The notes under the pieces: generated by a model | The model's input: the letters and a program-made list of their open reading frames with translations, nothing else | Database searches by the model: none | What the model was told of the DNA's origin: nothing | Translations under genes and position numbers: made by a program | DNA from: Methylobacterium sp. WL1 | GTDB taxonomy: Bacteria; Pseudomonadota; Alphaproteobacteria; Rhizobiales; Beijerinckiaceae | Direction of reading: 5' to 3' | Assembly (NCBI RefSeq): GCF_008000895.1 | Contig: NZ_CP042823.1 | Coordinates: forward strand, 1,739,001 to 1,803,000 | DNA: 64,000 bases | Shown here: positions 29,043 through 58,651 of the stretch, one piece after another | Layout: the number at the start of each line of letters is the position of its first letter | Numbering within the stretch: position 1 is the first letter of the stretch

Positions 29043-29044
29043 CG

Positions 29045-30757: not shown

Positions 30758-30763
30758 AAAGGC

Positions 30764-33585: not shown

Positions 33586-33599
33586 ACCACGTGAACCAA

Positions 33600-37853: not shown

Positions 37854-38129
37854 GTGGATGCCATGCCTCGCAAGCGCTTTACGAACGAACAGATCGCCTT
37901 TGCCCTTCGGCAGGCGGAGAACGGCGCGACGGTGGACGAGGTCTGCCGGAAGATGGGTGCGTCCGAGCCGACGTTCTACCGCTGGAAGAAGCAGTTCGTC
38001 GGCATGGGCGTGCCGGAGATCCGGCGGCTGAAGCAGCTGGAGGACGAGAACAGCAAGCTCAAACGATTGGTGGCCGACCTGACGCTGGACCGCTCGATGT
38101 TGCAGGATGTCCTGAAGCGAAAGTGGTAA
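37854..38129 (+). CDS. IS407-type transposase OrfA
   Basis: 91 residues; the real start may be ATG 37863 (MPRKRFTNEQIAFALRQ). Helix-turn-helix with EPTFYRWKKQFVG and zipper LKQLEDENSKLKRLVADLTLDRSML. Overlaps orfB by 7 bases. Confidence 0.9.
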   Translation: MDAMPRKRFTNEQIAFALRQAENGATVDEVCRKMGASEPTFYRWKKQFVGMGVPEIRRLKQLEDENSKLKRLVADLTLDRSMLQDVLKRKW

Positions 38130-40138: not shown

Positions 40139-43100
40139 CTAAAGTGCGTTGACAGGATGTGCCAGAGCGGCCAGCCTTACGTTTCCTAGGGAGTAGTAGT
40201 CCCGCATCAGGTCATCGTACTCGGCCGTCTGGATCGGGACCGAGAGCTCCGTAGCGGTTGAGATGTCGATCGCTAATAGCCGGTCATTGAAGGCGGTTGG
40301 GTCGTTCGCGAGAGCGTAGGGCAGGAGGTGGCCGTTCGGGTAGACGCGCAGCTGATTGCCCTGAGCACCAAGGTCAAAGGCCACCACTGGCAGGCCGGTC
40401 CGCAGCCCCAGCGTCAGGGCGTAGGAATAGGTCTCAGGCCAGATCGTCGGCAGCAGGATCAGGTCGGGGGAGACCTTCGGCAGGAGATCGAGGATCTCTT
40501 CGTCCTCCCGGGGCTGGCCGGTCTCTGCGATCTGCAGGGCGGCCCGGGCGACGCGATCGAGTGTCGGATCATCGGAGGAGTAGAATCCCGTCTCGGTAAC
40601 GCCGGCCCGCTCCATGCTGCCGGTCAGCGCCGGATCTGAGAAGCCCACGATCGAAAACTGCAGCGCGAGGTCTCGCTTGCTGGCATCGGCCACCAAGGCC
40701 TGAAGCAGTAGGCCGCCTTCAGGCATACTGATTCTACCCAGTACGGCGACCCGGCGCACGCGGCCCGGCCGGCGCAGCGCCGTCGAGCGTACGCTCCGGT
40801 CGTGCTCGACATGCGGCCGCACCGTGATCGCCAGCTCCGGATACACCGCCCCGATCCGCCCCGCCGTGTCGGCCGACGGCGCGAACACCCGCGCCGCCCC
40901 GGCCAGGAACCGTCCGAACGCGGCCCGCCGCTCCTCCGGGTCCGGCTCCTCGTAGCCGTCCGCGTCCGAGGCCAGGCAGTCCCGGCACACCGGCACCGGC
41001 GCCAGCCCGCAATAGCGCCCGTCCGGCATCACCAGGTGGTTGCGGTGGCAGACCGGCGAGAAGTCGTGCAGCGTCCAGGCATAGGGCCGCCCCGAGTATG
41101 ACACGAGGTCCATCAGGGCGCGCGCCGCATTCCAGCGCAGGCCCGCCAGCGAGTGGACGTGGATCAGAACCGGCGCCAGCTGCTCCACGAAGGCGGCGAC
41201 CGCCTCGGCGTCGCGGGGCAGGTACAGGCTGTCCAGGCTCGGCAGGTACACGAACTCCCGGCTGCGGTACGAGACGTTGACCTGGATGTTGCGGGCCCGG
41301 TCGACCGAGAGCAGCACCACGGCGGTGCCCTCGGCTTTCAGCCGGGCGATCATGTCGTCGATGTGCCGCTGGATGCCCCCGCCCCAGCTGTGGGTCACGA
41401 ACAGCACGGCCCGACCGCGGAAGTGCCGGGCGAGCCGGTACAGGTCGAGCCGCGCCCGGCCGCGCCGGCCCGGATCGGCCTGAACGAACTGGCCGACCAG
41501 CGCCGGGTAGTCCGGATGCTTGGCGAGCAAGGCCGCCTGACCCTGGTCGTACTCGCCGCCCGGGTCGAGCCCGAACGAGATCTGCCCGGCATGGTAGACG
41601 TACACGTCCTCGGCCAGGAGGTTCGAGAACCCCGCCTTGCGGGCGCGCATGCACCAGTCGTTCTCCTCGCCGTAGCCCTTGCCGAAGGCGACCGCATCGA
41701 GGGTGCCGACGGCATCGAGCGCGGCGGCGGTCATATACATGCAGAAGCCGACCCCGGTGGGCACCTCGACCGAGCGGCCGCGGTTGAGCGCCTTGGCGGC
41801 CTGGTCGAGCTCGGGCCGGGGGATCTCCAGCGCCATGGCGTTGTTGGCGTTGAACTTCGGGTAGCTGCAGATCGTGGCGTTGCTGGACAGCGGCGTGACG
41901 CTGCCGACCGGCGCCCGGCCCTCGGCCTCGGCGGTCTCGGCGTGGGCGACCAGCCGGTCGAGCCAGTCGCCGAAGACCTCGGCGTCGGAGTTGAGCAGGA
42001 CCACGGCCCGGCCCTGGCGCAGGGACAGGCCGCGGTTGACCGAGCGCACGAAGCCGAGGTTGTCTTGGTTTTCGACGAGGTGGAACAGGCCGCGGCCGGC
42101 CAGCTCCACGAGCTCCGCGGTCAGCCGCGGGTCGGGGGACCGGTCGTTGACCGCGAGCAGGGTGAACGGGGTTTTTTGCGGAGCCGAGAGGCAGGCGTGG
42201 ATGGCGCGCAGGGTCTCGCCGCGGCCCTTGTAGACCGGCATGATCACGACGACCCGGGCCTGGGCGAGGGTGAGTGCGCGGGGCAGGCCGTCCCAGTCCC
42301 GCGGCTCGGGCGCCTCCATGGCCGGCCAGCTGCCGAGATCCTCCGGGCAGCCCATCAGCCCGGCGGTTCGGCCGGTGCGGACGTAGTGCAGGACCGGCGA
42401 CTCGCCCGGCGCGAACAGGTGCCCGTAGGCCCGGCGATAGAAGCGGGTCGAGAAGGTCTTGCTCGGGTCGCGATCTTCCTCCTGGCCGTGGGACAGGAAG
42501 TGGATGGCCGGGCCGTTCTCGAAGCCGCGCGTGTCGGGATAGCGCTTCAGGTACCAGGCGGCGTCGAAATACGGTTCGATCAGTCGGGCCTGCTCCAGCA
42601 ACTCCGCATCCTCCGCCGCGGGCGGCGTGCCGTAGCCTGAATCGAAGGCGTCGCCCGACAGGTCGGTGCTGCGCAGCAATGCGGTGGCGAGGTGGTGGAC
42701 GAAGGGGGCGATTCCCGTCGCCTCCACGTAGGGGCGATGGGCGCGATAGGCCCAGCCGTTGAAGTCGGGGCGCGGGTTGCGGCCCCTGCGCCAGCCGGTG
42801 TCGCAATAGTCGCGGACCGCGTCGGCGTCATCCGGCAGGCCGTAGCGCTGCCGGTAGAAGGCATGGTCGAAATGGAGCGCCGCCAGCCCGACCTGCAGGT
42901 CCAGGGACGCGGCCCGGTCCAGGGGCTCCCGGCCGATCGCGTCGAGCCAGCCGGTATCCTCGATCGGCGGACGCGTCGGGCGCAGGCCGCAGACGCGCAG
43001 CAGCGCGTCGAGCGTCGAGCGGCCCGGGCCGGGATCCCGCAGTTCTTGCCAGCCGACCCGTGAGAAATGGACGTAGGGCGCAAGCCCCTGCGCATCCGGG

Positions 43101-44065
43101 TAGGTCGTCCGGTACCAAGCCTCGTCCACGGCAGGAAACGTTGGCTGGTCCCGGCCCGAGAACGGCGTGCCGCCGGAGAGCAGCGTCTCGGCCACATACC
43201 GAAAAAACGGGTCGCCGATCACCGCCCGACTGCCGGCCCGCGCCTGCACGAAGCCGGCCGGGTCGAAGTCCTGGCGCGGGCTGCGCAGCGCACGCCAGTC
43301 GCCGGTCATGTAGGCCCGCAGCAACTCTGCGTCGGACGCGTCGGAGAGCGCCTGGGCCTCCCGCTCGTCCAGGCCCTCGCGGTAATAGGCGGCGTTGAAA
43401 TAGAGCGCCAGCGTCTCGGCCTGCAGCCCGAAAAGATCCTCCGGCTCGGGCCGGGCGAGGCCGCCGTGCAGGACGTAGTGCACCAGCGGATTCTGGGTCG
43501 CGTAGGAGATGTTTCGGGTCAGGCAGTAGGCCAGGGTGTCGAAATGCGGCGACGGCTCGCGGCCCTCGCGCCAGCCGGAGGCCATGTAGTGGCCGGCCGG
43601 ATCGACGCCGGCCGCCTGCAGGTCGGGGTTGTTAGCGAGGTAGAACGCGCCGTCCACGAGGCGACGGGCCAGGCGCTCGGCCTGCCTGGTGTCGGGCTTG
43701 GGCAGGGCGCCACCTTTAGCGCGCTGGGCCGTCACCCAGTGCAGGAGCGGGTTGATAGCGGCCCTGGCCAGATACGGCCGCGCGGCGAGGTAGTCGGCGG
43801 TGCAGAAATCCGGTCGCGGATCCCGGCCCTCGCGCCAGCCGAGCACGAGGTAGTCGCGCACCGGATCGACCGTGATGCCGTACCAGCTCGCGTAGAAGCC
43901 GGCGTCGACATAGAGCTCCAGCGCCGCGATCTGCTCCGCCGCCGACGTGAGATCGTTCGCCGGCGGAAGGCTACTGCGGGCCGCGAGCCGGACCAGCGGG
44001 TTGCGGCTCGAACGCGCTCCGGCGGAGCCCGCCCAGCTGTGATACAGGCCGTACAGGGTCTTCAA
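40139..44065 (-). CDS. repeat-bearing glycosyltransferase, GT2 plus GT4-like
   Basis: 1308 residues. Residues 45-590 contain about nine loose units with YLVLGWREGRDPRPDF, YMASGWREGREPSPHFD and similar. A GT2 domain at about 598-880 has VVVIMPVYKG, LAVNDRSPD, LLNSDAEVF near 687 and GEENDWCMRARKAG near 792. A GT4-like region from about 888 begins AVLFVTHSWGGGIQRHIDDMI and includes HVHSLAGLRWNAA, VFAPS and a donor part with ILLPTIWPETYSYALTLGL. It is likely bifunctional in chain synthesis. The last 200 codons (40139-40740) are far lower in GC than the rest, suggesting a recombination joint. Confidence 0.88.
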   Translation of the reverse strand: MKTLYGLYHSWAGSAGARSSRNPLVRLAARSSLPPANDLTSAAEQIAALELYVDAGFYASWYGITVDPVRDYLVLGWREGRDPRPDFCTADYLAARPYLARAAINPLLHWVTAQRAKGGALPKPDTRQAERLARRLVDGAFYLANNPDLQAAGVDPAGHYMASGWREGREPSPHFDTLAYCLTRNISYATQNPLVHYVLHGGLARPEPEDLFGLQAETLALYFNAAYYREGLDEREAQALSDASDAELLRAYMTGDWRALRSPRQDFDPAGFVQARAGSRAVIGDPFFRYVAETLLSGGTPFSGRDQPTFPAVDEAWYRTTYPDAQGLAPYVHFSRVGWQELRDPGPGRSTLDALLRVCGLRPTRPPIEDTGWLDAIGREPLDRAASLDLQVGLAALHFDHAFYRQRYGLPDDADAVRDYCDTGWRRGRNPRPDFNGWAYRAHRPYVEATGIAPFVHHLATALLRSTDLSGDAFDSGYGTPPAAEDAELLEQARLIEPYFDAAWYLKRYPDTRGFENGPAIHFLSHGQEEDRDPSKTFSTRFYRRAYGHLFAPGESPVLHYVRTGRTAGLMGCPEDLGSWPAMEAPEPRDWDGLPRALTLAQARVVVIMPVYKGRGETLRAIHACLSAPQKTPFTLLAVNDRSPDPRLTAELVELAGRGLFHLVENQDNLGFVRSVNRGLSLRQGRAVVLLNSDAEVFGDWLDRLVAHAETAEAEGRAPVGSVTPLSSNATICSYPKFNANNAMALEIPRPELDQAAKALNRGRSVEVPTGVGFCMYMTAAALDAVGTLDAVAFGKGYGEENDWCMRARKAGFSNLLAEDVYVYHAGQISFGLDPGGEYDQGQAALLAKHPDYPALVGQFVQADPGRRGRARLDLYRLARHFRGRAVLFVTHSWGGGIQRHIDDMIARLKAEGTAVVLLSVDRARNIQVNVSYRSREFVYLPSLDSLYLPRDAEAVAAFVEQLAPVLIHVHSLAGLRWNAARALMDLVSYSGRPYAWTLHDFSPVCHRNHLVMPDGRYCGLAPVPVCRDCLASDADGYEEPDPEERRAAFGRFLAGAARVFAPSADTAGRIGAVYPELAITVRPHVEHDRSVRSTALRRPGRVRRVAVLGRISMPEGGLLLQALVADASKRDLALQFSIVGFSDPALTGSMERAGVTETGFYSSDDPTLDRVARAALQIAETGQPREDEEILDLLPKVSPDLILLPTIWPETYSYALTLGLRTGLPVVAFDLGAQGNQLRVYPNGHLLPYALANDPTAFNDRLLAIDISTATELSVPIQTAEYDDLMRDYYSLGNVRLAALAHPVNAL

Positions 44066-45260: not shown

Positions 45261-45800
45261 ATGGCTGAGGACAACACCCTAACGAAGGCGCTGGTCGATG
45301 TGCGCGCCAGGCAGGCTGCGCTTCAGAGCGATTACGACCGGATCTCGGCGGAACTGACCAAATTGCGGGCGGCGGAAGCCGCTCTGACGGCGATCGTGGA
45401 GGGTGTCCCACTGAAGGACACGGCCATCTTTCGGTCATCGGACAATCCGCGATCGTCCGGAGAGGATCAAGCCACGTCTGGTCGCAGTGGGCGTCGCGGA
45501 GCTCGCGGTCCACGGTCGAACTCGGCCAAGGGACGCCTGAAGGCCCTCCTCGGTAGCGCGGGGCCACAGGGATTGACCCATGCGGAGATCGCGGAGCGCT
45601 TGCCCGACGTCGCTCCGAACACCCTCAACACCTATCTCAGCATGATGGTGACGGGCGGTGAAGCAGTTCGAAAAGGCGACTTCTTCACCGCCGCCGATGG
45701 AGGTGAGAACGAGGCCGACGACCCCGATGTCGAGTCGGACCAGGATGACACGGCATCGGACGACGAGGATCCACATCACGTTGTGGCCGCTGCCGAGTGA
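45261..45800 (+). CDS. hypothetical protein with coiled coil and winged-helix-like part
   Basis: 179 residues. N-terminal helix likely to form a coiled coil (LVDVRARQAALQSDYDRISAELTKLRAAEAAL), a basic Ser/Gly/Arg linker, then a compact segment LKALLGSAGPQGLTHAEIAERLPDVAPNTLNTYLSMM that resembles a winged helix, and an acidic tail. Possibly DNA-binding. A hairpin with arms CCGGGGAG/CTCCCCGG follows the stop. Confidence 0.55.
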   Translation: MAEDNTLTKALVDVRARQAALQSDYDRISAELTKLRAAEAALTAIVEGVPLKDTAIFRSSDNPRSSGEDQATSGRSGRRGARGPRSNSAKGRLKALLGSAGPQGLTHAEIAERLPDVAPNTLNTYLSMMVTGGEAVRKGDFFTAADGGENEADDPDVESDQDDTASDDEDPHHVVAAAE

Positions 45801-46399: not shown

Positions 46400-47833
46400 T
46401 CAGTAGTCAGACGACAGGCGCCGGATGATCGGCAGCATCAAGCCGCCGGGTGACGCGGCGGGCACGGGAAAGATCGTGGCGGTCTGATCAGTCTTCACCC
46501 GCGGCAGCCGCTCGATCACGGTCCGCAGGTTCGGAATCGTCCGAGCCAGCGTCGCCGCGAGGGTCTCGCCGGCGGTCTTGGCCATCACGTATTCCAGGGT
46601 GTCGCGCGGCGCTTCGTCGATGGCGGTGGTCGAGGGATAGAAGGCCGCCACGCGGTCGCGCCGTTCGAGGCAGAACAGGCTCAGATCGTAGAACGCGTAA
46701 TTGTAGACCCGCATCATCTCCTCGAAGCATGACGGCTCGAAGGCGGCCCGCTTCTGGCGGAAGATACGGGGCGTCGCGAAGTGGTAGAGCTGGGACGGCT
46801 GCATCACGACGGATCCGAGTTGCGGCGCGACCGGCTGGACGGCGTCGTAGCGGAGGACCTGGCAGCGTCCGCCACCGTTCCGGATCTCCTCGGCGACCGC
46901 CTCCGCTTCGGAGGCGCTGGACGCGTAGGTGATGCAGACGTCGCCGCCCCCCGCCGCGAGCAGCTTGGCCGTGGCCGCCCCGAGGCCCCGCGATCCACCG
47001 ACGACGAGGGCGGACACCGCAGAGAATTCGCCCGGGCGGACCAGGGCCGCGAGGCCCGCCAGGCTCTCCGGCTCGACCGGGCGCGGGCGCACGAAGCTCT
47101 CGACCCGGGCCTCAAGGCCCGGACCGCTGGCCTGCGTCGTCACCGACTGGAGCATCGGCTGAAACCGCTTCACTGTGTAGGCGAGGCTCGAACCGTCGGC
47201 CCCATCCGTGAGCGTCACGTCGATCTTCGAGAGGATCGAGTGCAGGCCGGGTATCAACATGCCCACAAGGGTTGAGAGGCCGCCGAGGGCGGCGACGCGG
47301 GCGGGACCGATGGCCCGCGAGAGCTGCGGCACCAGCGCCGCGATCGCCTCCGGGTCGGGGAGCCGGAATGCCCCCGTCGCGCCGGCGATCGTTCCCGGTT
47401 CGACGACGGCCGGCTCCGTCGGAATCGCCCCGGATGCGACCGCCACAGGCTCGGCCCGCGGCCTCGCTCCTCCGAGCGTCGCCTGGATCGTCGCCGCACG
47501 GACGCCGTCCACTGACAAGGAAAGACGCAGCCCCTGCGCATCCGCCCCGTGCACCGCGAGTTCGGTGCGGTCGCCCACCAGCACGAAGCGTTCGAACCGC
47601 ATCTGCAGGCTGCTCAACTCTTCGAGCCGGTATATCTCCGCGTAGGCATCCAGCGCCCACAGGGCCACGTGGACGCCGTGGACCGCGCGGCCGCCCGCGA
47701 GCGTCCGCTGTGCCACGCGCGCATCCATATGCATCGGGTTCACGTCGCCGGTGGCCCGGGCGAAGGCTGTCTGGTGCGTCTCGGACCAGATCCGCACCAT
47801 CGCCGTCGCGGCAGCCGAATCAGATCCGTTCAT
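46400..47833 (-). CDS. MaoC-like dehydratase fused to short-chain dehydrogenase
   Basis: 477 residues. The N-terminal 115 residues form a hot-dog MaoC-type hydratase (FARATGDVNPMHMD, GGRAVHGVHVALWALDAY). The C-terminal half from about residue 270 is an SDR-type Rossmann domain: ALVVGGSRGLGAATAKLLAAGG, with the YxxxK pair in EYVMAKTAGE. The joined activities fit hydration/dehydration and keto reduction of an acyl thioester. It is divergent from the FkbH-ACP operon and very GC-rich like it, so it likely acts in the same acyl pathway. Product not known. Confidence 0.8.
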   Translation of the reverse strand: MNGSDSAAATAMVRIWSETHQTAFARATGDVNPMHMDARVAQRTLAGGRAVHGVHVALWALDAYAEIYRLEELSSLQMRFERFVLVGDRTELAVHGADAQGLRLSLSVDGVRAATIQATLGGARPRAEPVAVASGAIPTEPAVVEPGTIAGATGAFRLPDPEAIAALVPQLSRAIGPARVAALGGLSTLVGMLIPGLHSILSKIDVTLTDGADGSSLAYTVKRFQPMLQSVTTQASGPGLEARVESFVRPRPVEPESLAGLAALVRPGEFSAVSALVVGGSRGLGAATAKLLAAGGGDVCITYASSASEAEAVAEEIRNGGGRCQVLRYDAVQPVAPQLGSVVMQPSQLYHFATPRIFRQKRAAFEPSCFEEMMRVYNYAFYDLSLFCLERRDRVAAFYPSTTAIDEAPRDTLEYVMAKTAGETLAATLARTIPNLRTVIERLPRVKTDQTATIFPVPAASPGGLMLPIIRRLSSDY

Positions 47834-48056
47834 CGTGAAGCTCCTTGTCGACGACCAGGCCGGTAGGCTCGGAATCGGCCCCGACCCGATCGCATCGGGA
47901 CGCCGCCCAGAAACCGTGCTTCGATCGGGCGCTCGGGCGCGACCGATCGCGATCCGGTCCGGCCCCTTGCTTTATGGTATCGGATCTCGCAAGAGGGCGC
48001 CGCTCGCATAGTCAGGATGGGGCCGGTCGATCGCCGGAGGGCAGGCATCCTTCGGG

Positions 48057-49688
48057 GTGTCGCAGGGACCGGTATCGGGGATGACCACGGCTCGCGCTCT
48101 CTCGCTCGGCTTCGTCGGAAACGTCGTCACCAACCCGTTCGGGAAGGTGACGAGCCGCCTCGCGGATCTCGCTCAGGTCGCGTGCGAGCATTTCCCGATC
48201 GGGCAGATCGAGCAAGTCCTGGCGGGACCCGCCTCCGTCGACACCCTCATCGTTCATCTCGATCACCGCTGGTTCTTCGACGTCGCCCCGGACGAGGCCG
48301 CGGTCGCGCGGGCCCGGATGCTGGGCGAACTGGTCTCGGCCCGCCTCGCGAGTGCGTCCGGAACGATCATCCTCAACACGGTTCCGTTCGTGCCGGTCTC
48401 GTCGGTGGAGAGCGACCTCCACGGCCAGCTGGACGCTTTGGCCCGCATCAACGGGGTGTTGTTCGAACTCGCCCGCACCAACGAGCGCGTGAGCGTCATC
48501 GATGCGGCGGGAGCCCTGGCGCAGATTGGCTTCGCCAACGCGCTGCGCGAGCGCAACCGCTACCTCTATCAGATGCCCTACGCCCCGGCCGCCGTCGATG
48601 CGCTGGTCGAGCGCTACGCCGACGCGATCGCGGCCCGGCTGCGGGCCCGCCGCAAGGTCGTGGTGGTCGATGCCGACAACACCCTCTGGGGCGGCGTCGT
48701 CGGCGAGGACGGCGTCGAGAACCTCGAGGTCGACAGCGACTATCCCGGGATCGTGCACACTCAGCTCCAGCGTCAGCTGCTGCGCCTGAAGAGCCTCGGC
48801 ATCCTGCTCTGCGCGGTCACCAAGAACAACGACGCGGATTTCCGCTCGGTCTTCGAGCAGCGCGCGATGCCCCTGCGCCTCGACGACTTCGTCGCCTATC
48901 GCAGCAACTGGTCCGAGAAGAGCGACAACATCCGCGAGCTCGCCGAGACGCTCAATCTCGGCCTGGATAGCTTCGTCTTCCTGGACGATAACCCGTTCGA
49001 GATCGAGGAGGTCCGCGCGCGGCTGCCTGGCGTCGAGTGCCACCTGTTCGACCGGACACGGCCGGAGCAGGCGCTGACCCTGCTCGACGCGATCGCGTCC
49101 CTGCGGGCGCGGAACGTCACGGCCGAAGACCTGTCGAAGACCGAGCAGTATCGCGGTGAGGCGCAGCGGCAGGAACTGCAGCGCTCGGCCGCCTCCATGG
49201 ACGAGTACCTCGCCTCGCTCGACATCCGCCTGCACATCACCCGCAACAATCCCGGCGCGCTCCGCCGCGTGGCGCAGCTCATCAACAAGACCAACCAGTT
49301 CAATCTCACCACGCGGCGCTACACCGAGGACGAGGTCGCCACCGCGATGCGCGAGGGCAGCGTGTACGCGGCCCGGGTGGTTGACCGCTTCGGCGATATG
49401 GGCATCGTCGGCGTCGCCATCGTCCGGGGCGGTGCGCTCGAGACGTTCCTGATGAGCTGCCGGGCGCTCGGACGCCGCATTGAGAGCCAAGTCCTGCGCT
49501 ACGTCTGCCAGGAAGAGGCCGACCCGGCGCTGCGGGCACGCTATCGCCCCAGCGCCAAGAACCGGATGGTCGAGACCTTCCTGGACGAAAACGGGTTCGC
49601 GCTCATCGGCTCTGGCCCCGAGGGCAAGGACTATCGACTGACCCGAGGACCGGATGACACTGCCTACGTCCACATCGTCGCCGAGTGA
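48057..49688 (+). CDS. FkbH-like HAD-IIIC protein
   Basis: 543 residues; ATG 48081 is an equally good start. The N-terminal 190 residues are SGNH-like, then the HAD-IIIC core VVVDADNTLWGGVVGEDG (Asp pair near 205-207), CAVTKNNDADFRSVF and FLDDNPFEIEEVRARLPGVE, then a GNAT-like C-terminal region (LRRVAQLINKTNQFNLTTRRYTEDEV). Characterised FkbH proteins load a glyceryl unit from 1,3-bisphosphoglycerate onto an acyl carrier protein with loss of phosphate. The next gene is such a carrier, with overlap of 35 bases. First gene of a tight six-gene operon. Confidence 0.88.
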   Translation: MSQGPVSGMTTARALSLGFVGNVVTNPFGKVTSRLADLAQVACEHFPIGQIEQVLAGPASVDTLIVHLDHRWFFDVAPDEAAVARARMLGELVSARLASASGTIILNTVPFVPVSSVESDLHGQLDALARINGVLFELARTNERVSVIDAAGALAQIGFANALRERNRYLYQMPYAPAAVDALVERYADAIAARLRARRKVVVVDADNTLWGGVVGEDGVENLEVDSDYPGIVHTQLQRQLLRLKSLGILLCAVTKNNDADFRSVFEQRAMPLRLDDFVAYRSNWSEKSDNIRELAETLNLGLDSFVFLDDNPFEIEEVRARLPGVECHLFDRTRPEQALTLLDAIASLRARNVTAEDLSKTEQYRGEAQRQELQRSAASMDEYLASLDIRLHITRNNPGALRRVAQLINKTNQFNLTTRRYTEDEVATAMREGSVYAARVVDRFGDMGIVGVAIVRGGALETFLMSCRALGRRIESQVLRYVCQEEADPALRARYRPSAKNRMVETFLDENGFALIGSGPEGKDYRLTRGPDDTAYVHIVAE

Positions 49689-49968
49689 GCACGCTGCCGC
49701 GACAGCCGCCCGCACCACCCTGGACCGCCTGGTCGAGACCTGGGGCCGGCCGGAGCTGAGCGGCCTCGGCCCGGAGGACGACCTCTACGAGCGGATCGAT
49801 TCCTTCGCGGTGGTCGAACTGCTGCTGGAGACCGAGTCCGAGGTCGAGAAGGCGGTCGGGCGCTACGTCCCGCTGGCCGACGAGAGCATCCTCGACAGCA
49901 CCCGCTCGCCCCTGCGCCGGCTCCAGGGCTGGTTCGACTACGTCGCGCAGGCCGTCGCCCGTGGCTGA
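49654..49968 (+). CDS. acyl carrier protein 1
   Basis: 104 residues with an extended N-terminus. The phosphopantetheine Ser is Ser50 in ERIDSFAVVELLLETE. Overlaps the FkbH gene by 35 bases and the KAS III gene by 8, so translation is coupled. Probably carries the unit loaded by FkbH. Confidence 0.8.
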   Translation: MTLPTSTSSPSEHAAATAARTTLDRLVETWGRPELSGLGPEDDLYERIDSFAVVELLLETESEVEKAVGRYVPLADESILDSTRSPLRRLQGWFDYVAQAVARG

Positions 49969-50998
49969 GCTGCGATTCCAACACGCCGGGATCGCCGGCC
50001 TCGTCACCACGGTCGGCGGCCGGGCGCTCGCCTTCGACGCCGAGGCGGCCGATCTCGGGATGTCCCCCGAGGAGGCCGAGCGGCTCAAGCGCGCGATGGG
50101 CTTCACCACCCGCCACGTGGTCGTGCGTGACGACACCACCACCGCCGACCTCTGCCTCAACTCGGCCCGGGCGCTCCTGCGCGGCCTCGACCTGCAGCCG
50201 GCGGATCTCGACGGGCTGATCCTGGTCACTCAGACGCCGGATTACAGCTCGCCCTCGACGGCGATCGCGATGCAGCATCGCCTCGGCATGCGCACCGACA
50301 CGCTCTGTTTCGACATGCGGCTGGGCTGCAGCGGCTTCGTGTACGGGCTCTCGGTCGCCTACAGCCTGGTCGAGTCCGGGCTGAAGCGCGTGCTCCTCTG
50401 CGTCGGCGATGTCGCGAGCCGCATGGTCGCCACGAACGACCGCTCCATCACCCCGATCATGGGCGATGCCGGCGCCGCCGTCCTGATCGAGCGGCGGGAG
50501 ACCGAGAGCGTCTTCCAGCTCCACAGCGACGGCTCCGGCGAGAAGGCTCTGTTCATCCCGCATAGCGGCCTGCGCGCGGATCCAGAGGATGCCGACAAGC
50601 CGGCCTCCATGCACATGGACGGCGCTCAGGTGTTCAATTTCTCGCTTAAACGCGTTCCCTCGCTGGTCACCGACATCTTGGCGGCCGCCGGAATGAGGCC
50701 GGAGGAGCCGGATTTCTACGTCCTGCACCAGCCGAACAAGTACATTCTTAAGAACCTGCAGCGGCGGCTGGGGCTCGACGACGTCAAGCTTCCCTCGGGC
50801 ACGCAATCCGTCTACGGGAACCAGAACTCCGCCTCGATCCCCGGAACGATCTCGGGCTTCCTGGCGGAGGATTTTGCGCGCCGGCCGCTGCGCGCGGTGC
50901 TGGCGGGGTTCGGCGTCGGTTTGAGCTGGGGCGCGTGCGCGCTGAGCACCGACCGGATCTACGCCCCGCCCGTTTTGAAGTTCGAGGAGACCGCGTGA
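49961..50998 (+). CDS. beta-ketoacyl-ACP synthase III-like (FabH family)
   Basis: 345 residues from GTG 49961. Thiolase-fold enzyme with the full FabH triad: Cys123 in MRLGCSGFVYG, His256 in YVLHQPNKYI and Asn287 in VYGNQNSASIP. It either condenses an acyl starter with an ACP-bound extender or transfers an acyl group. In tetronate pathways a related FabH-like enzyme works with FkbH-loaded glyceryl-ACP, so a similar joint is possible here. Its stop overlaps the next ACP start by one base. Confidence 0.9.
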   Translation: MAELRFQHAGIAGLVTTVGGRALAFDAEAADLGMSPEEAERLKRAMGFTTRHVVVRDDTTTADLCLNSARALLRGLDLQPADLDGLILVTQTPDYSSPSTAIAMQHRLGMRTDTLCFDMRLGCSGFVYGLSVAYSLVESGLKRVLLCVGDVASRMVATNDRSITPIMGDAGAAVLIERRETESVFQLHSDGSGEKALFIPHSGLRADPEDADKPASMHMDGAQVFNFSLKRVPSLVTDILAAAGMRPEEPDFYVLHQPNKYILKNLQRRLGLDDVKLPSGTQSVYGNQNSASIPGTISGFLAEDFARRPLRAVLAGFGVGLSWGACALSTDRIYAPPVLKFEETA

Positions 50999-51225
50999 TG
51001 ACCGAGGCTGGGTTCCTGGACGAGCTCGGCGCGATCCTGGATCAGCCGGGGCCGCTCGCGCGCGGCCAGACGCTCGGCGAGATCGAGACCTTCGACTCCC
51101 TCGGCATCCTCAACATCATGGCTCTGTTCGATACGCTGGGTCTCGAGGTGGAGCCGTCGCGGATCGCGGAAGCATTGACCACCGACGACCTTCTGGCCAT
51201 GGCCAGCACGAAACTGGCCGCCTGA
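50998..51225 (+). CDS. acyl carrier protein 2
   Basis: 75 residues from ATG 50998, which overlaps the KAS III stop as TGATG. The carrier Ser is Ser34 in IETFDSLGILNIMALFD. An open extension to 50935 lies inside the KAS III gene and is rejected. Two carriers in one operon suggest two different acyl intermediates. Confidence 0.82.
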   Translation: MTEAGFLDELGAILDQPGPLARGQTLGEIETFDSLGILNIMALFDTLGLEVEPSRIAEALTTDDLLAMASTKLAA

Positions 51226-51234
51226 GGCCGGGCG

Positions 51235-51957
51235 ATGGTGGAACCCGCGGGACACATCCTCGTCGTCGGAGCCAGCAGCGGCATCGGCCGGGCCGTCGCG
51301 GAGCATTTCGCCGGACAGGGCTCGGTCACCGCCCTCGCCCGACGGGCGGACAAGCTGGCAGGCCTCGCCGATGCAGGGATCGCGACGGTCGCGGCGGACG
51401 TGACCGACCTGGCGGCGATCGGCGGCGTTCTGCAGGCTGCTGTCGCCGAGCGCGGCCTGTTGACGGGCCTCGTGTACTGCGCGGGCGTACAGGTCATCAA
51501 ACCGATGCGCAGCCTCGGCGTGGACGAGGTCGAGCGTCTCTACAAGACGAACCTCGTGGCCCCGACCCTGTTCGCGGCCGCGTTCGGCAGCGCCCGGATC
51601 TCGACGCGGGACGCGGTGTTCTGCGCGATATCATCGGTCGCGGGCCAGCGCCCGGAGCCGGCGATCGTTCCCTACGCGGCCTCGAAGGCGGGTCTCGACG
51701 CGCTGATCCGCGGTCTCGCCCGGGAACTCGCGCCGCGCCGCGCGGTCGGCGTCGCGCCGGGCTGGCTCGACACCGAGATGACCCAGGCCCATGCGCGCCT
51801 CTACAGCGACGACTTCAAGGTCGCGCTGGAGAAGCGCAGCCCGGCGGGCGCGGCGACGGTGGATTCGGTGGTCGATGCCATCGCGTTCCTGATGTCGCCG
51901 CAGGCGCGGCACGTGACCGGCGAAATCCTGCGGGTCGACGGCGGGGCAACGCTGTGA
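51235..51957 (+). CDS. short-chain dehydrogenase/reductase (3-oxoacyl-ACP reductase-like)
   Basis: 240 residues. Rossmann motif VGASSGIGRAVAEHF at 11-25, catalytic Ser133/134, Tyr147 and Lys151 (VPYAASKAGLD), and C-terminal VTGEILRVDGGATL. FabG-like; probably reduces the keto group produced by the KAS III enzyme. Begins 9 bases after the ACP. Confidence 0.88.
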   Translation: MVEPAGHILVVGASSGIGRAVAEHFAGQGSVTALARRADKLAGLADAGIATVAADVTDLAAIGGVLQAAVAERGLLTGLVYCAGVQVIKPMRSLGVDEVERLYKTNLVAPTLFAAAFGSARISTRDAVFCAISSVAGQRPEPAIVPYAASKAGLDALIRGLARELAPRRAVGVAPGWLDTEMTQAHARLYSDDFKVALEKRSPAGAATVDSVVDAIAFLMSPQARHVTGEILRVDGGATL

Positions 51958-51970
51958 TGGATGGCTGCCG

Positions 51971-52618
51971 GTGACGTCCGAGACCAAGCGCCTGGCCCTG
52001 ATCGGCGGCGGCGGCTTCTCCAAGGAGATTGCCGAGGTCGCGCAACTCTGCGGCTACACCGTGGAGGCGACCTATTCGAGCCAGCCGAGCGCCCAGGTCG
52101 GAACCTATCGGGGCTACCTCGACGCATTGCTGGCCGACCGCGCGGAGTTTGCGGGTGTCGCCCTCGCGGTCGGCGGGGTGAGCCGGGCTGCGATCCAGGC
52201 GCGCGCCGAGATCATCGCGTGGCTCGACCGGCATGCCCTCCCCTGCCCGCCCCTGGTGTCGCCGCACGCGATCGTCAGCCAGGGCGTGGTTCTTGGCGCC
52301 GGCGCGTTCGTCGCCCATGGCGTGATTGTCAATGTCGATGCGCGGCTCGGGCGTTTCAGCGTCGTGAATACCGGTGCCATCATCGGGCATGACGCGGAGA
52401 TCGGCGACAACACGACGATCTCGCCAGCAGCCTTCATCGGCGGACGCTGCATGGTCGGTGCGGACGGTCTGGTCGGTCCGCTCGCGAAGGTGTTGCAGGG
52501 CCTCAAGGTCGGCGCGCGCGCGATGATCGGCATGGGCTGCACCGTGCTGCGCGCTGTGCCCGACGACGCGGCGGTTTGGCCGAAGCCCGACAATCCCATC
52601 GCCATGGACCGGGGCTGA
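51971..52618 (+). CDS. NeuD/PglD-family sugar O- or N-acyltransferase
   Basis: 215 residues from GTG 51971. N-terminal Rossmann-like nucleotide-sugar-binding part (LALIGGGGFSKEIAEVAQ) and C-terminal left-handed beta-helix, with the catalytic His140 in NTGAIIGHDAEIGDNTTI. PglD-type enzymes acylate an amino sugar nucleotide. Being last in the FkbH-ACP-KAS III operon, it is the obvious candidate to move the completed acyl group onto a sugar. Separated by 13 bases from the SDR. Confidence 0.85.
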   Translation: MTSETKRLALIGGGGFSKEIAEVAQLCGYTVEATYSSQPSAQVGTYRGYLDALLADRAEFAGVALAVGGVSRAAIQARAEIIAWLDRHALPCPPLVSPHAIVSQGVVLGAGAFVAHGVIVNVDARLGRFSVVNTGAIIGHDAEIGDNTTISPAAFIGGRCMVGADGLVGPLAKVLQGLKVGARAMIGMGCTVLRAVPDDAAVWPKPDNPIAMDRG

Positions 52619-52715: not shown

Positions 52716-54998
52716 TCAAACGGTAAACAGATTGATGTTTTCCTGGCCGTCCTTCGACGGATATTCGTGCGCGGCCTGCAGACGTGTAAGGTGAGCCCAG
52801 AGGGACGGAAGATCATTCACGTCGTCAAGTTCAAAACAGTTTTCGACGATCGATCGCAACCTGAGCCACAGGTAAGGCGTAGTCTCTAGTGGATCCCCGG
52901 CCTTCTCATCCGCGATGATATCCCAGTCCCTCAACGCGTTGTGCGTGTCCTCGATGGATGACGCTGTTCCGGCGGCGCCCATCTGATTGGGCATGCGACG
53001 GCGGCGTACGGTTATGGAAGTCTGATGGTCTGCAGGAATGAGTGCGGTATGTAAGCGCGTGAAGAAGTTCTCGCTGACGAACTTGGGCTGATCCATCATC
53101 AAAACGTAGCGCCCTCGTGCCATCGCAAGTCCGACTCGGTATGCACCGGCCAGCGAGGCGTCCTCAGAGGTGTGTGCAACTCTCACGTTGGCAGCGCGCG
53201 ACAGAAGGTATTCTGTATCATCAGATGATTTATAATTGATAATAATTATTTCTGCATTCTCGAAAATCTTGCTGCGTAATACATTATTCATGATTTCAAA
53301 TAAGTATTCTGCATGATTTTTGGCTAATATTACGATCGACAATGCCGGCTCGGACACGGTGGGAATAGGCAAGGTCGCGTGGCGCGCAAAGAAACGATGC
53401 AAATTTACGATGAGATCGCGCCGCCTCTTTGGTTCAAGGCTGTTCTCGAACGGGTCCAAGGCGCTCGATGTTGCCGTGATTTCAGCCAACGTTTCATCCG
53501 CCAGGGCGGTGTCATAGCCGCGGGCCGTCAGGTGGTCACGCCAACCCACGATGTCGGCGCGCGTGATTAATCGACTGAGGAGCGTCACCTTCAGATACGG
53601 GAACCCGCGGTCGATCAGTTCGCGCCACCGAAAAGCCGTATGATTGATAGGCTCATCGGTTTTGAACAATGCGTCGCATCGCAGGCCCGCTGCGGCCATG
53701 AGGCCCGTGAACTGCGTCTCATATTCATTGATAACATCGTTTTTGTCGTAATAGGAAACGACGGAATCGAAGAAGTTTATTACCGCGTCGGATCTGAGCG
53801 CGGAATGCTTCAGGACGAGAAAATAACTCTGTAGATGCCAACCAAGCTCATGGTTGTCCGTGAGACCGATGATATCGGCAGCGCGTGCTTCGATTTGCCT
53901 GCTCAGGTTGCCGAATGCAGCGGACCCGAACGGACCGAATGTGCTGTCGTTGACCAGGTATAGAGTACGGCTTGCGAGAACCTCGGGCCTTTTGCGCATA
54001 ATGTGCGCCCAGGCGGCAAAATCGAATCCCCGGTTCTGACGAACGAAAATGATGTTAGCCAACGCCTCGATGTCCGGGTGAACGTGAACCGATGCTGCAT
54101 CCGTTGCGATGATCAGGACGATCGAGAGCCGCGCGTCGCGCAGAGCCTCCAGGTGATGCCTCAAATGGGGCTTGAGCGTTGCGGTCGGTGTATGGGTGAC
54201 GAACAGGGCCACATGTTCAGTGAGCCCGCTCTCCTTGATGCAGACCAGTTCGGCATCCTCGACGCGCGCATGACGGAGCGCAACAGTGCTGTTGGGCTTC
54301 CGGTGCCCGACGATGCCAAATGTGATGAAGTGCTCGAGCGGAGAAATGCCGAGCGATGCGACATCTTTGTACCGCATCGTGTACCAGTCGGCGTCGAAGA
54401 CACCGGTCCACTGAGCGCGATCCTCGGCCGCCGAAGTCGGTGCGCGATTTTCATAGATGCCAATCGTGAGATAGTGGTCCAAGGGCGGCAGGCCGCTTTG
54501 GTTCACGTCGGAATAGCGCGCGACATACCAAACGGGGTCGAACCAGTTTTTCCAGAAGCTGCGGGATTCCTGTTCAACGCAGGCGCTTCGACCCTCGGCA
54601 TGTCCGTATGCCAGGAAATGCTGAAAGGGCGGCGCGCCACTGGCGGCCACGTCCCTGTTGCGTGCGAGGTACCAGACCGGGTCGAACGCGTTAAGAAGCC
54701 GCTGCCTCCGCTCACTCTCGGCATCGGGATAGCGCCCCTCAAGGGCGCCGAACGCGATGTAATGGGCGGCCGGATCCACGTCCGCGGCGGCAATGTCCGG
54801 ATAGCGCGCACGGTACCAGGTCGGATCGAGATTGGACGCGGAGCGATGAAGGGCCTCGGATGCTGCGTTGGGATAGCGGCCCTCCGCGCGTCCATACAGG
54901 GCGTAGTGTTCCACGGGATCCGCCCCCGCGCTGGCAACATCGCCGTAGCGGTTGAGATACCAGTCGGGATCGACTTCGCTGCCTGCAGATTCGCTCAT
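52716..54998 (-). CDS. repeat-bearing rhamnan synthesis protein F-type glycosyltransferase
   Basis: 760 residues. Residues 9-240 are five units of about 46-48 residues with the consensus DP.WY..RY.DVA..G.DP..HY...G..EGR.PNA. Residues about 255-540 match RgpF: HVALFVTHTPTATLKPHLRHHL, RQNRGFDFAAWAHIM, LYLVNDSTFGPF, LTDNHELGWHLQSYFLV and NEYETQFTGLM. The last 200 residues look like a GT2 domain (LSIVILAKNHAEYLFEI, IIIINYKSSDDT) whose usual DxD reads MMDQPKF, so it may be inactive or binding-only. RgpF proteins add rhamnose-type side chains. It converges with the acyl operon. Confidence 0.85.
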   Translation of the reverse strand: MSESAGSEVDPDWYLNRYGDVASAGADPVEHYALYGRAEGRYPNAASEALHRSASNLDPTWYRARYPDIAAADVDPAAHYIAFGALEGRYPDAESERRQRLLNAFDPVWYLARNRDVAASGAPPFQHFLAYGHAEGRSACVEQESRSFWKNWFDPVWYVARYSDVNQSGLPPLDHYLTIGIYENRAPTSAAEDRAQWTGVFDADWYTMRYKDVASLGISPLEHFITFGIVGHRKPNSTVALRHARVEDAELVCIKESGLTEHVALFVTHTPTATLKPHLRHHLEALRDARLSIVLIIATDAASVHVHPDIEALANIIFVRQNRGFDFAAWAHIMRKRPEVLASRTLYLVNDSTFGPFGSAAFGNLSRQIEARAADIIGLTDNHELGWHLQSYFLVLKHSALRSDAVINFFDSVVSYYDKNDVINEYETQFTGLMAAAGLRCDALFKTDEPINHTAFRWRELIDRGFPYLKVTLLSRLITRADIVGWRDHLTARGYDTALADETLAEITATSSALDPFENSLEPKRRRDLIVNLHRFFARHATLPIPTVSEPALSIVILAKNHAEYLFEIMNNVLRSKIFENAEIIIINYKSSDDTEYLLSRAANVRVAHTSEDASLAGAYRVGLAMARGRYVLMMDQPKFVSENFFTRLHTALIPADHQTSITVRRRRMPNQMGAAGTASSIEDTHNALRDWDIIADEKAGDPLETTPYLWLRLRSIVENCFELDDVNDLPSLWAHLTRLQAAHEYPSKDGQENINLFTV

Positions 54999-55192
54999 GA
55001 TCGTCCGAAGCTTGACCGCAACACGCTCGCTGGACCAGTATCACGGATGCAGGACTCGTCCGATGGGTTCATACCTCTTAGCCGACCCGCTCCTATATCA
55101 AATCGATCGGACCGGTCGAGGCCCGTCCCAACCCTTGGTTCACCCCGTTGCGGGTGGTCTGCATGGATGTATGGCTTCCGTGCGCGTGGAGT

Positions 55193-56375
55193 TAACCCAG
55201 TTTGTGGTCCACGGACGATGCAAGTCCTCGGGCTGTGACAGCTTGGTTCGCGAAGGATCGGAGCGTCAAGCCGCCCAGGGCTTATGGGGTCGATCTTCGC
55301 TGTAGTCGGGCCTCCAGTCCTTGAGGGGTCCACGGGCATCGGCGAGCAACAGAAACACCAAGCGTTCAGGCATTCCGCCCGTAGGAGGCTTTGAACGCTT
55401 CGATGTCGGTCGGCTTCCCTGGCCGGGAGAAGTCGATCGCGACCCCGTTCCGGTAGGCTCAAGGGTCGAGCATTCGGCCGGCGAACTCTGATCCATCGTC
55501 CCCCCCCTGGCGTTTCAGTCGACCTCGCAGCCGCACCAAGGCGTCCAGAGTCTCGGTCACTTGGTAGGGGGGGAAGCTGGCTCTCGGTGTGAGCGAGAGC
55601 GCCTCTCGCGTAGGGCAATCGATCACCGTGAGAGTCCAGAACGGACACCCATCGAAGACGCGATCGGATACGAAGCCCATCGCCCACACCTCGTTGTGTT
55701 CGCCGGTCGCCGGCCGCTCCCGGCGATCGAGCCAAGGTCGCTTGCGCTGGAGCAGCTTGGACCGGGTCGACACTCCCTCGTCATGGTAGATCCGGAACTC
55801 CACTTGTCATTCACGGTCCAGCCCTCCCGTTGCAACAGGATGTGCAGCCGCTGGTAGCCGTTGCGCACCAACCGATAGCCAGCTCCTTCAGCCGCATGCG
55901 CAGCTTCACCTGCGGGTCGGAGGGCTTTCTGTAGCGCTGGAACGAGCGGCCAAGCCGGTGGCCTGGCAAACCCCGACGCTCGCGGACGCCGTAGGCCACC
56001 TGCAGGTGGCCGGCGACCTCGTGGCGAGCGGCGGGCCTCACTACTCTCGCTTCAGGGCATCCTGCGGCCACGAGCGGTCCAGCGTCAGGCCGTCCACCAA
56101 CCGCTTAAGCTTGCCTTCTCGCCCTCCAGAGGTTTGAGCCGTCGGATATCACGCGCGCCCATGGCGACGAACTGCTTCTTCCAACGGTAACGAGGTCGGC
56201 TCGCACCGGCTCATCTCCCGACAGACCTTGTCTACCGCCGCACCAGTTTCCGTCTGCCGCAGGGCAAACGCGATCTGTTCTTCGCGAAGCGATTGCCGAC
56301 ATGGCATCCGCCTTCCTTCAGGGCCCAGGACGCCCGAAAAACCTGCGGCCAGCGCCAACCATTTTGCGAGGCCAA
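55193..56375. mobile_element. degenerate IS407-type element, minus strand
   Basis: The minus strand carries a decayed version of the intact IS at 37791-38988. OrfA pieces lie near 56149-56330 (REEQIAFALRQTETGAAVDKVCREM) and orfB pieces in three frames: 55811-56071, 55459-55803 (HNEVWAMGFVSDRVFDG) and 55266-55496. Several frameshifts destroy it. The low end retains AACCCAGTTTGTGGTCCACGG-like sequence. It is inverted relative to the intact copy. Confidence 0.8.
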
Positions 56376-57217: not shown

Positions 57218-57241
57218 TTGAAACGCCCGAATCAAACTCAG

Positions 57242-58651
57242 ATGCACCACGATCTGCAGAACGACCGAGTTATCTCGTCAGCCGCGTTTCCAGACTCCGT
57301 CCATGTTGGCCGCGGGACTTACTGGGACCCGAAAACTAAGTTTATGACTTACATAGCAGATGAAAGATTATACATCGGACGTTATTGCTCGATCGCGGAG
57401 GACGCTTTTCTAGCGACAGGGGGAGAGCATTTCACAGAAAAGGTGAGTACGTGGCCCGTCGACACTTTTATCTTAGGTGTCTGGAACCCATCGCGTGCAT
57501 ATCGTCGAAAGCCGGATACCCGCATCGGATCGGATGTATGGATTGGTCGCAGTGCGCAAGTTTTTGGCGGATGTACTGTTGGGCATGGCGCCGTTATTGG
57601 AGCGGGTGCCGTCGTTTGTAAAGACGTGCCGCCGTTTGCCATCGTAGTGGGAAACCCGGCGAAGATCATCCGATATCGTTTCGATGAGGCTACTCGCGCC
57701 GATCTTCTGGCGATTGCCTGGTGGGATTGGACACCGGAAGAGATTCGGGCTCGGGCTGAGTGGTTCTATAAACCGATAGAAATCTTCATCTCTGAATTCT
57801 CCGCGGCGCAGAATCAAACAGATCTCCCCGCTCCGGCGACGGTCTCTCCTCCAAATCAAATTTCGGAAAACAAAATGCAATCTCTCAGACAAATTGCTCC
57901 GGCCTATAGCAATGACGCTCCGTCTCAGCAGGCAATGATTGATATTCTAGCAGGAAGTTGGGTCAGCTCATTTCCTCCAGAAATGGGCTTGTCGGCCGGC
58001 GGCACCGCTCATTTCGATCAAACGGTTGACAATCGCGTTAAAGAAGTCGCGGACGTTTTCGATTTTTCAGGAAAATCGGTCTGCGAACTTGGTCCATTGG
58101 AAGCATACCAAACCAAGCATCTCTGTGATGCCGGCGCGGGCCCCGTGGTGGCGGTTGAAGCCAATGATCTGGCGTTCGTGAAATGTTTGATGGTCAAGGA
58201 GATGTTCAATATCCCCGCCAATTTTTTTTACGGAAGTGCATTAAAATATCTTGAGAATAACGACAAAGTTTTCGACGTGATCTGGGCGTCTGGTGTGCTT
58301 TATCATCAAGTCGAACCGCTCAGATTGCTGGAATTGATTTGCGATCGTTCAAACGCCTTTTTTATATGGACGCATTATTGGAAGCAAGAAGAATGCGCGA
58401 AGGATTTAACGTTTGATGTCGATAAAGATATTGTGAAAGATATTGGCAGTGCCCCGGTAGTCCATCATTACAAAAGTTATGTCGCGAAGGGGATCGAGTT
58501 TTCAGGTGGTGTGGAGAGCGGAGCCTATTGGCTGGAAAAAAATATAATACTCGATTATGTAACGGAGCGCGGCTTCAAGTTGCTTCATTTCAAAGAGCAG
58601 GTCGATGCGCCCCCCGGCCCGGTCATGTTGTTTTTTGCCGTTCGTAGTTGA
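57242..58651 (+). CDS. acetyltransferase-methyltransferase fusion protein
   Basis: 469 residues from ATG 57242 (a TTG at 57218 is in frame). Residues about 15-195 are a left-handed beta-helix xenobiotic-type acetyltransferase: YIGRYCSIAEDAFLATGGEHF, IGSDVWIGRSAQVFGG, VIGAGAVVCKDVPPFAIVVGNPAKII and WWDW. After a Pro/Asn-rich linker, residues 235-469 are a class I methyltransferase: SVCELGPLEAYQTKHL, VVAVEAND, IWASGVLYHQVEPL, IWTHYWKQ. The second half is a paralogue of the protein at 36949. One protein could both O-acetylate and methylate the glycan. A strong hairpin follows. Confidence 0.82.
   Translation: MHHDLQNDRVISSAAFPDSVHVGRGTYWDPKTKFMTYIADERLYIGRYCSIAEDAFLATGGEHFTEKVSTWPVDTFILGVWNPSRAYRRKPDTRIGSDVWIGRSAQVFGGCTVGHGAVIGAGAVVCKDVPPFAIVVGNPAKIIRYRFDEATRADLLAIAWWDWTPEEIRARAEWFYKPIEIFISEFSAAQNQTDLPAPATVSPPNQISENKMQSLRQIAPAYSNDAPSQQAMIDILAGSWVSSFPPEMGLSAGGTAHFDQTVDNRVKEVADVFDFSGKSVCELGPLEAYQTKHLCDAGAGPVVAVEANDLAFVKCLMVKEMFNIPANFFYGSALKYLENNDKVFDVIWASGVLYHQVEPLRLLELICDRSNAFFIWTHYWKQEECAKDLTFDVDKDIVKDIGSAPVVHHYKSYVAKGIEFSGGVESGAYWLEKNIILDYVTERGFKLLHFKEQVDAPPGPVMLFFAVRS

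Follow-up and report, generated by a model that had tools for sequence, protein, structure and literature searches.

The 64,000-nucleotide stretch of Methylobacterium sp. WL1 analysed here (hereafter the window) contains, at positions 46400 to 52618, six closely packed genes and a divergent one. Together they encode an FkbH-family enzyme, two acyl carrier proteins (ACP1 and ACP2), a ketoacyl-ACP synthase III (KAS III), short-chain dehydrogenase/reductase (SDR) domains and a predicted sugar N-acyltransferase. The host genome is 6.25 Mb, and the window sits on a 6.2-Mb contig. The genes are as follows.

46400-47833, minus strand: MaoC-SDR fusion (Pfam MaoC and adh_short), divergent from the operon; candidate dehydratase-ketoreductase editing a carrier-bound acyl group
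48057-49688, plus strand: FkbH-family protein (HAD/acyltransferase; TIGR01686); predicted glyceryl loader from 1,3-bisphosphoglycerate onto ACP1
49654-49968, plus strand: ACP1, predicted loading carrier; S50 is the predicted phosphopantetheine site
49961-50998, plus strand: KAS III condensing enzyme (both Pfam domains; Cys123-His256-Asn287)
50995-51225, plus strand: ACP2 (GTG start at 50995, ATG at 50998 as alternative start), predicted condensation/product carrier; S35 is counted from the GTG
51235-51957, plus strand: SDR ketoreductase (Pfam) with a predicted VioR-like role
51971-52618, plus strand: predicted NeuD/PglD/VioB-type left-handed beta-helix sugar N-acyltransferase (PglD_N, hexapeptide repeats), called NeuD below; predicted catalytic residue H140

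An earlier note on this DNA had described six tightly overlapping genes and a divergent MaoC-SDR fusion. The open reading frame (ORF) list agrees with this gene content and places the six on the plus strand at 48057-52618, and both halves of the fusion score above their Pfam cut-offs. The packing is indeed tight, but the overlap is not complete: from the ORF coordinates, three of the five junctions overlap (by 35, 8 and 1-4 nucleotides), and at the other two the genes are 9 and 13 nucleotides apart. Since the plus-strand genes overlap or sit at most 13 nucleotides apart, they are likely to be carried on one transcript. A promoter and terminator scan gave no promoter-like site and two terminator-like sites, for 1.8 expected by chance, and an Rfam scan gave no match at the gathering score. 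The gene set is more than a chance arrangement, because it recurs with its order kept in all 17 genomes of the genus that carry this KAS III at 80% identity or more, and its core recurs in 10 loci outside the genus.

Enzyme families and conservation within the genus

The FkbH protein belongs to its family by score (TIGR01686, 275.3 bits for a cut-off of 146.65). It is the only match to this family in the whole genome, and none was found in 14 control genomes. Residues D205, D207, T209 and C468 are invariant in 27 aligned rows, one further row being a fragment (locus L013, whose contig starts inside FkbH) and excluded. For KAS III, both ACP_syn_III Pfam domains score over cut-off. The Cys-His-Asn triad, typical of a decarboxylating condensing enzyme, is complete, as the earlier note had it: C123, H256 and N287 are invariant in 19 of 19 rows of a first alignment (the window plus 18 of 120 listed homologues) and in 28 of 28 rows of an alignment of loci. 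These 28 rows stand for 27 loci, as L010 and L124 are apparently one genome. A housekeeping FabH identity was rejected for this protein, which scores below the FabH models (TIGR00747, 182 vs 292 bits; NF006829, 206 vs 249 bits). Neither carrier gave a match in the Pfam or NCBIfam scans; an Asp-Ser motif of phosphopantetheine type is invariant in 28 of 28 rows in each of them (D49-S50 in ACP1, D34-S35 in ACP2).

The SDR matches its Pfam family and has the motif residues S-S at 133-134 and YAASK at 147-151. NeuD has a PglD_N domain, barely over the cut-off (23.6 for 23.4), together with hexapeptide repeats and a histidine of catalytic type. Its closest solved chains are PerB (4ea7, E 1.1e-19) and VioB (7txp, E 1.9e-18). 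H140, kept in 23 of 23 rows, aligns with the PerB histidine that is an asparagine in 4eaa and that we take to be the catalytic residue. In the MaoC-SDR fusion, D30, N32, P33 and H35 on one side and S401, Y415 and K419 on the other are invariant in 21 of 21 rows (the window plus 20 of 120 listed homologues). Its AlphaFold model has a pLDDT of 86, and fold comparison matched the SDR half only, except for one row of wider range. Residues 150-247 may resemble a second hotdog, because of their predicted secondary structure. By eye, the match lists of MaoC-SDR and KAS III have contigs of 1,372,808, 17,859, 7,821 and 6,550 nucleotides in common outside close relatives, which suggests that the two genes are linked there too.

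KAS III was found at E 1e-60 or better in 20 of 111 Methylobacterium genomes. In 17 of them, WL1 included, identity is at least 80%, and all 17 carry the seven genes in the same order with MaoC-SDR divergent. The other three have a KAS III of 39-41% identity and gave no FkbH match. In one genome of the genus the operon SDR is apparently truncated (L130:8212-8589; 29 bits, no YxxxK), which may be an assembly error. Six of the 16 Methylobacterium loci compared with the window carry, 100 bp behind NeuD, a DesI-like sugar aminotransferase (closest PDB entry 2po3, E 6.4e-79), for which we assume a VioA-like role. Its close form (at least 80% identity) is confined to these six among the 111 genomes, and relatives of 44-52% identity occur in 20 others. 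One of the six loci (L131) also carries FdtA, a second aminotransferase and a GNAT gene.

The core and its carriers outside Methylobacterium

The core FkbH-ACP1-KAS III-ACP2 was found in the same order in one Massilia locus (L012) and in nine Campylobacterota loci (L011, L013-L016, L150-L153). Several loci come from metagenome-assembled genomes, the genome samples are partial, and the broad contig scan for KAS III considered the best 80 loci. In 9 of these 10 loci, amino-sugar or glycosylation genes adjoin the core. The note had named conservation away from glycan loci as one of the observations that would speak against its proposal, and this pattern was not seen. The proposed tie of FkbH, carriers and KAS III to sugar acylation is supported, whereas the capsule to which the acyl group was assigned is not: no capsule export system was identified in the window, where the scans gave glycosyltransferases, many transposases and a single weak match to ABC2-membrane.

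The glycan contexts differ. In L011, L150, L151 and L152 a protein with an STT3/PglB core lies upstream, the one of L151 matching the solved PglB 3rce with E 5.6e-160. Behind the module, L150 and L151 carry genes for NeuD, a DegT aminotransferase and a PF02719 dehydratase; with the roles that we presume for the pgl genes, this make-up is, by analogy, that of an N-glycosylation locus with NeuD at the position of PglD. The sequence of L152 ends within the SDR, and in L013 a DegT-like start directly follows NeuD (by eye). In L014, L015, L016 and L153 the core lies behind PseG and before a PseH-like GNAT and PseI, and in three of these (L014, L015, L153) PseB, PseC, fliS and fliD are also nearby. 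PseB, PseC, PseG and PseI of L153 all score over their NCBIfam cut-offs, and the GNAT of L014 has Pfam GNAT matches only. The Massilia locus has its own NeuD and, about 6.5 kb on, a DegT aminotransferase 40% identical to the DesI-like one; its neighbours are mixed and do not resemble a glycan cluster (by eye).

An SDR match is present in all six loci outside Methylobacterium that are not of pse type. A gene of the VOC superfamily, methylmalonyl-CoA-epimerase-like (PF13669 over, TIGR03081 below cut-off), lies between SDR and NeuD in L011, L012, L013, L150 and L151, that is, in five of the five non-Methylobacterium loci that span this stretch. The window has there a 13-nucleotide gap without a VOC gene, and MaoC-SDR is present instead. 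No MaoC match was found in the Massilia and Campylobacterota loci (L150-L153 being searched with the whole fusion).

The distribution of the module is rare and patchy. In a sample of the order Campylobacterales, KAS III was found at E 1e-75 or better in 8 of 348 genomes, with FkbH adjoining in all eight. A sample of the order of Methylobacterium had matches at E 1e-40 in 8 of 297 genomes, those other than WL1 itself being 33-38% identical; a sample of its class gave one of 385 (WL1) at E 1e-75, and one of the order of the Massilia genome gave one of 399 (that Massilia). Wide presence of the module was not found in these samples. A plasmid-borne cassette was rejected as well: the window lies on the 6.2-Mb contig, and a plasmid collection gave relatives below 60% identity only (E 1e-30).

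In a KAS III tree of 86 rows (which excludes L010, L038, L048, 11 of the 16 Methylobacterium rows and the later-found L150-L153), the window falls in a clade of 12 rows, six of them Methylobacterium, with an SH-aLRT support of 99. All 12 are FkbH-linked, L013 by way of its FkbH fragment. Among the rows near this clade are seven loci that have an AMP ligase (Pfam checks covered four of these ligases). In these loci (L017, L018, L019, L021, L024, L025, L042), KAS III and both carrier types occur with the ligase replacing FkbH. Their hosts are Thiomargarita, Opitutales/Puniceicoccales/Verrucomicrobia, Helicobacter, Vibrio and Campylobacter, and several have nonulosonic-acid genes. Loci of Maribacter, Desulfovibrio and Clostridium also have FkbH, there in the vicinity of other KAS IIIs. 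Because the FkbH label needs five changes on the tree, its pairing with KAS III appears to have arisen more than once or to have been lost. In the Maribacter arenosus locus (L059, 6879-12282), the KAS III is a different one, and the FkbH, MaoC, SDR and NeuD-like genes that surround it may reflect convergence.

Carriers of ACP1 type were found in 23 of 26 FkbH loci, 7 of 7 AMP-ligase loci and none of 46 loader-less loci. ACP2-type carriers occurred in all three classes, including 35 of the 46 loader-less loci. The carrier models were trained on 13 loci of the FkbH clade, so that the FkbH count is partly circular; the other two counts are not. A locus is called loader-less here if neither this FkbH nor one AMP ligase was matched inside 6 kb and if over 4 kb of sequence lay on each side, so that other loader types would escape. 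Of 100 loci, the 21 whose flanks were shorter do not enter the counts, and L010 and L124 were counted apart among the 26. The simplest reading is that ACP1 would hold the loaded starter and ACP2 the condensation product, because the ACP1 type tracks the loaders and the ACP2 type is present in all classes. Over 12 loci, the distances of FkbH, KAS III, ACP1 and ACP2 are correlated (r 0.91-0.96; 2000 permutations gave no value as high). This would fit a module travelling as a unit, and host kinship contributes to it.

Predicted pathway and alternatives

Taken together with the observed gene content, conserved order and catalytic residues, the ACP1-loader link and the recurrence beside amino-sugar or glycosylation genes lead us to favour, with moderate confidence, one reading of the operon: it would be a small line resembling a type II fatty acid synthase, primed with glycerate, that builds a polyhydroxy N-acyl group for an amino sugar. 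Priming would come from glycolysis in place of acetyl-CoA. Enzymes of the FkbH family transfer glyceryl from 1,3-bisphosphoglycerate to an ACP, and FabH-like proteins are able to use this unit (PMC7489565). By this family knowledge, FkbH would convert 1,3-bisphosphoglycerate to glyceryl-S-ACP1. KAS III would then condense the C3 starter with a malonyl unit on ACP2, giving 4,5-dihydroxy-3-oxopentanoyl-ACP2; this step is proposed because the triad is intact and there are two carriers, and it would be decarboxylative because the Cys-His-Asn triad is complete. The SDR would reduce the 3-oxo group, and NeuD would transfer the ACP2-bound acyl group, predicted to be 3,4,5-trihydroxypentanoyl (+132.0423), to a nucleotide-activated amino sugar, acylating its amino group. 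Judging from the neighbours in relatives and the nearest solved structures, the acceptor is most likely a 4-amino-4,6-dideoxyhexose. Accessory editing may be performed by MaoC-SDR in Methylobacterium and by the VOC protein in Massilia and part of the Campylobacterota.

Several observations weigh against this reading. NeuD narrowly misses TIGR03570 (153.4 bits for a cut-off of 160.8), although its counterpart in L151 passes with 175.5 bits. The name of the DesI-like aminotransferase lies below its curated cut-off (TIGR04427, 348 for 650 bits), and so do two names in L151 (PglB, 639 for 1300; LegC-type aminotransferase, 374 for 420). A linked 4-aminotransferase of DesI/VioA type is absent in WL1 itself, where the best genome match is 34% identical, and an operon-linked aminotransferase is also absent in 10 of the 16 Methylobacterium relatives. 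In L011, PglB lies upstream, but neither aminotransferase nor dehydratase was found behind NeuD in the stretch examined. Three loci with FkbH and KAS III (L059, L078, L087) gave no ACP1-type carrier. The four pse-type loci gave no SDR or NeuD match, so that the line is incomplete there. Finally, the operon has no malonyl transferase, and a housekeeping one would be required.

The incomplete pse-type loci also favour, among the alternatives, the one that survives best, although we regard it as unlikely: that there is no chain extension. FkbH and ACP1 would make glyceryl-ACP, KAS III would act as a transacylase to ACP2, and NeuD would make an N-glyceroyl amino sugar (computed mass +88.016). Such groups exist, since D-glyceroyl is found on the 4-amino group of QuiNAc4N in Pragia fontium (PMC10609480), and Campylobacter jejuni flagellin carries 5-(2,3-di-O-methylglyceroyl)amino pseudaminic acid (PMC3068675). 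The nonulosonic-acid locus of the C. jejuni flagellar glycan has an fkbH-domain gene, cj1302, in a strain making a glyceroyl-type N-acyl group (PMC7099621, PMC3068675). C. jejuni 11168 has dimethylglyceroyl-pseudaminic acid and strain 12664, in which cj1302 is a pseudogene, has none, but strain 12661, which instead lacks cj1301, has none either (PMC7099621). These three strains suggest a link of cj1302 to the modification; the likeness to our FkbH is by description and not by sequence, and the cited passages do not assign this role to cj1302. Against a line without extension stand the complete triad in 28 of 28 rows, the SDR match in the six non-pse loci outside Methylobacterium and in 17 of 17 within it (one of them truncated), and the ACP2-type carrier kept in 35 of 46 loader-less KAS III loci.

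Slightly less probable still is that the starter is edited before condensation, MaoC-SDR acting like the dehydratase-ketoreductase pair of a polyketide synthase and turning glyceryl-ACP1 into lactyl-ACP1, for a final 3,4-dihydroxypentanoyl group (+116.0473). In bryostatin synthesis, such a pair together with FkbH gives D-lactyl. In 17 of 17 Methylobacterium genomes the operon has MaoC-SDR at its side, residues of catalytic type are conserved in each half in 21 of 21 rows, and in the Maribacter locus L059 a MaoC gene and a separate SDR gene lie between FkbH and KAS III. However, MaoC could equally act after condensation, and no MaoC match was found in the Massilia and Campylobacterota loci, five of which carry the VOC gene instead.

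Among the closest known systems is the viosamine island in Pseudomonas syringae pv. tabaci (vioA, vioM, vioT, vioS, vioB, vioR, acp), with its counterpart in P. aeruginosa PAK. There, a KAS III, an ACP, a ketoreductase and a NeuD-type acyltransferase build a hydroxyacyl group for a 4-amino-4,6-dideoxyhexose; all four types are present in the window, and the DesI-like gene behind NeuD in 6 of 16 Methylobacterium loci adds to the likeness. A vioR mutant lacks the modified viosamine (3-hydroxybutyryl, 2-O-methyl viosamine), and vioS, vioB and acp were placed in the route to 3-hydroxybutyryl-viosamine (PMC3927599). The operon could be a plain route of this kind, primed by acetyl-CoA, with KAS III, ACP, SDR and NeuD in the roles of vioS, acp, vioR and vioB (PMC3927599) and FkbH serving another pathway. 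We hold this to be improbable, as FkbH is single copy and co-transcribed with ACP1 by layout, FkbH and ACP1 follow the KAS III clade, and ACP1 tracks the loaders. The seven listed ORFs of the island include no FkbH, second ACP, MaoC-SDR or VOC protein, and its acyl group is 3-hydroxybutyryl (PMC3927599). A second related set is wfpC-wfpG of the Flavobacterium psychrophilum O-antigen, with two ketoacyl synthases, an ACP, a ketoreductase and a PglD homologue, proposed to make 3,5-dihydroxyhexanoyl and attach it to UDP-Qui2NAc4N; it differs in that FkbH is not named in the main text (PMC6519341).

A tetronate-like cassette merely located among glycan genes is very improbable: glycerate-utilisation operons such as mad7/8/16 of tetromadurin do share an FkbH-like enzyme, an ACP, a FabH-like protein and glyceryl-ACP (PMC7489565), but their FabH-like protein closes the tetronate ring on a polyketide, and their five genes also include an acyltransferase and a dehydratase acting on the polyketide tetronate. 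The window, in contrast, has a ketoreductase and a sugar acyltransferase downstream, its 40 ORFs scanned with Pfam include no polyketide synthase (tetronate-specific models were not applied), and in another phylum the core again has genes for sugar acyltransferases and amino sugars at its side. The note had set this locus apart from tetronate operons by its sugar end. The sugar link stands, and the contrast is weaker than stated because N-acylated 4-amino-sugar sets (PMC3927599, PMC6519341) and cj1302 (PMC7099621) were already published.

Neighbouring genes and significance

Among the 16 Methylobacterium loci, the left flank of the operon is mostly kept and the right flank is not. The flanking genes are the following.

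40139-44065, minus strand: large two-domain glycosyltransferase (GT2 and GT4, Pfam); matched in 13 of 16 loci, in two of them only over 85-98 residues
44303-44905, minus strand: hexapeptide O-acetyltransferase-like protein (Pfam Hexapep); matched in 14 of 16 loci
45261-45800: ORF of 179 amino acids without Pfam match; matched in 15 of 16 loci
52716-54998, minus strand: RgpF/GT2 glycosyltransferase (Pfam); not conserved, one weak match in 16 loci

By eye, the glycosyltransferases or similar large proteins at 40139-44065, 52716-54998 and L092:4377-8162 have repeated N-terminal WY...YPDV...HY...G..EGR modules. Many transposase or integrase genes surround the glycan genes (12593-13279, 17809-21310, 27782-34695, 38123-38965 and 54995-55803, the last without Pfam match and assigned by eye), and 57218-58651 encodes a hexapeptide-repeat protein with a weak, below-cut-off methyltransferase match. 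Candidate genes for the acceptor sugar lie elsewhere in the WL1 genome, which has 14 DegT matches over cut-off, three of them strong; next to one of these three, about 23 kb downstream, is another NeuD. At 12-14 kb past the right end of the window (L092:11798-13677), a DegT aminotransferase adjoins a second NeuD-type acyltransferase (187 bits, over cut-off). Their cluster includes further sugar genes, among them one resembling NDP-sugar dehydratases, and perhaps represents a second acylated amino-sugar pathway.

We found in the literature, searched mostly without subscription papers and without supplements, no description of an FkbH-primed two-carrier module for sugar acylation; FkbH was never found together with O-antigen, nor with ACP and flagellin glycosylation. 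As far as these searches show, four features are new: the two-carrier form primed by FkbH, the recurrence of this form in three glycan contexts, the exchange of one loader for another and the two accessory genes. More tentatively, we propose that the core is a transferable two-carrier acyl-building cassette with interchangeable loaders, FkbH for glycerate and the AMP ligase for another acid. It would plug into unrelated glycan pathways at the step of amino-sugar acylation, including, at PglB N-glycan loci, acylation of the bacillosamine-type sugar. The groups made with FkbH would be C5 polyhydroxyacyl groups and may have been misread in glycan mass spectra: by computation, 132.0423 is also the mass of a pentose, and 116.0473, reached after starter editing, that of a deoxypentose and of dimethylglyceroyl. 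A "deoxypentose" has been reported on the flagellin of Campylobacter coli VC167 (PMC3958885).

If this is true, a glycolytic intermediate would enter sugar decoration directly, by way of a small and swappable line for acyl building, and a genetic route to N-acyl groups derived from glyceric acid would be at hand. Glycan chemists could predict the acyl group from the loader gene beside KAS III, and C5 hydroxyacyl groups with the mass of a pentose would be flagged. The presence of the core at PglB loci would mean that the amino sugar of some bacterial N-glycans bears a larger polar group instead of acetyl. The occurrence of the core beside three different glycan pathways in unrelated bacteria suggests a reusable way to customise bacterial sugars.

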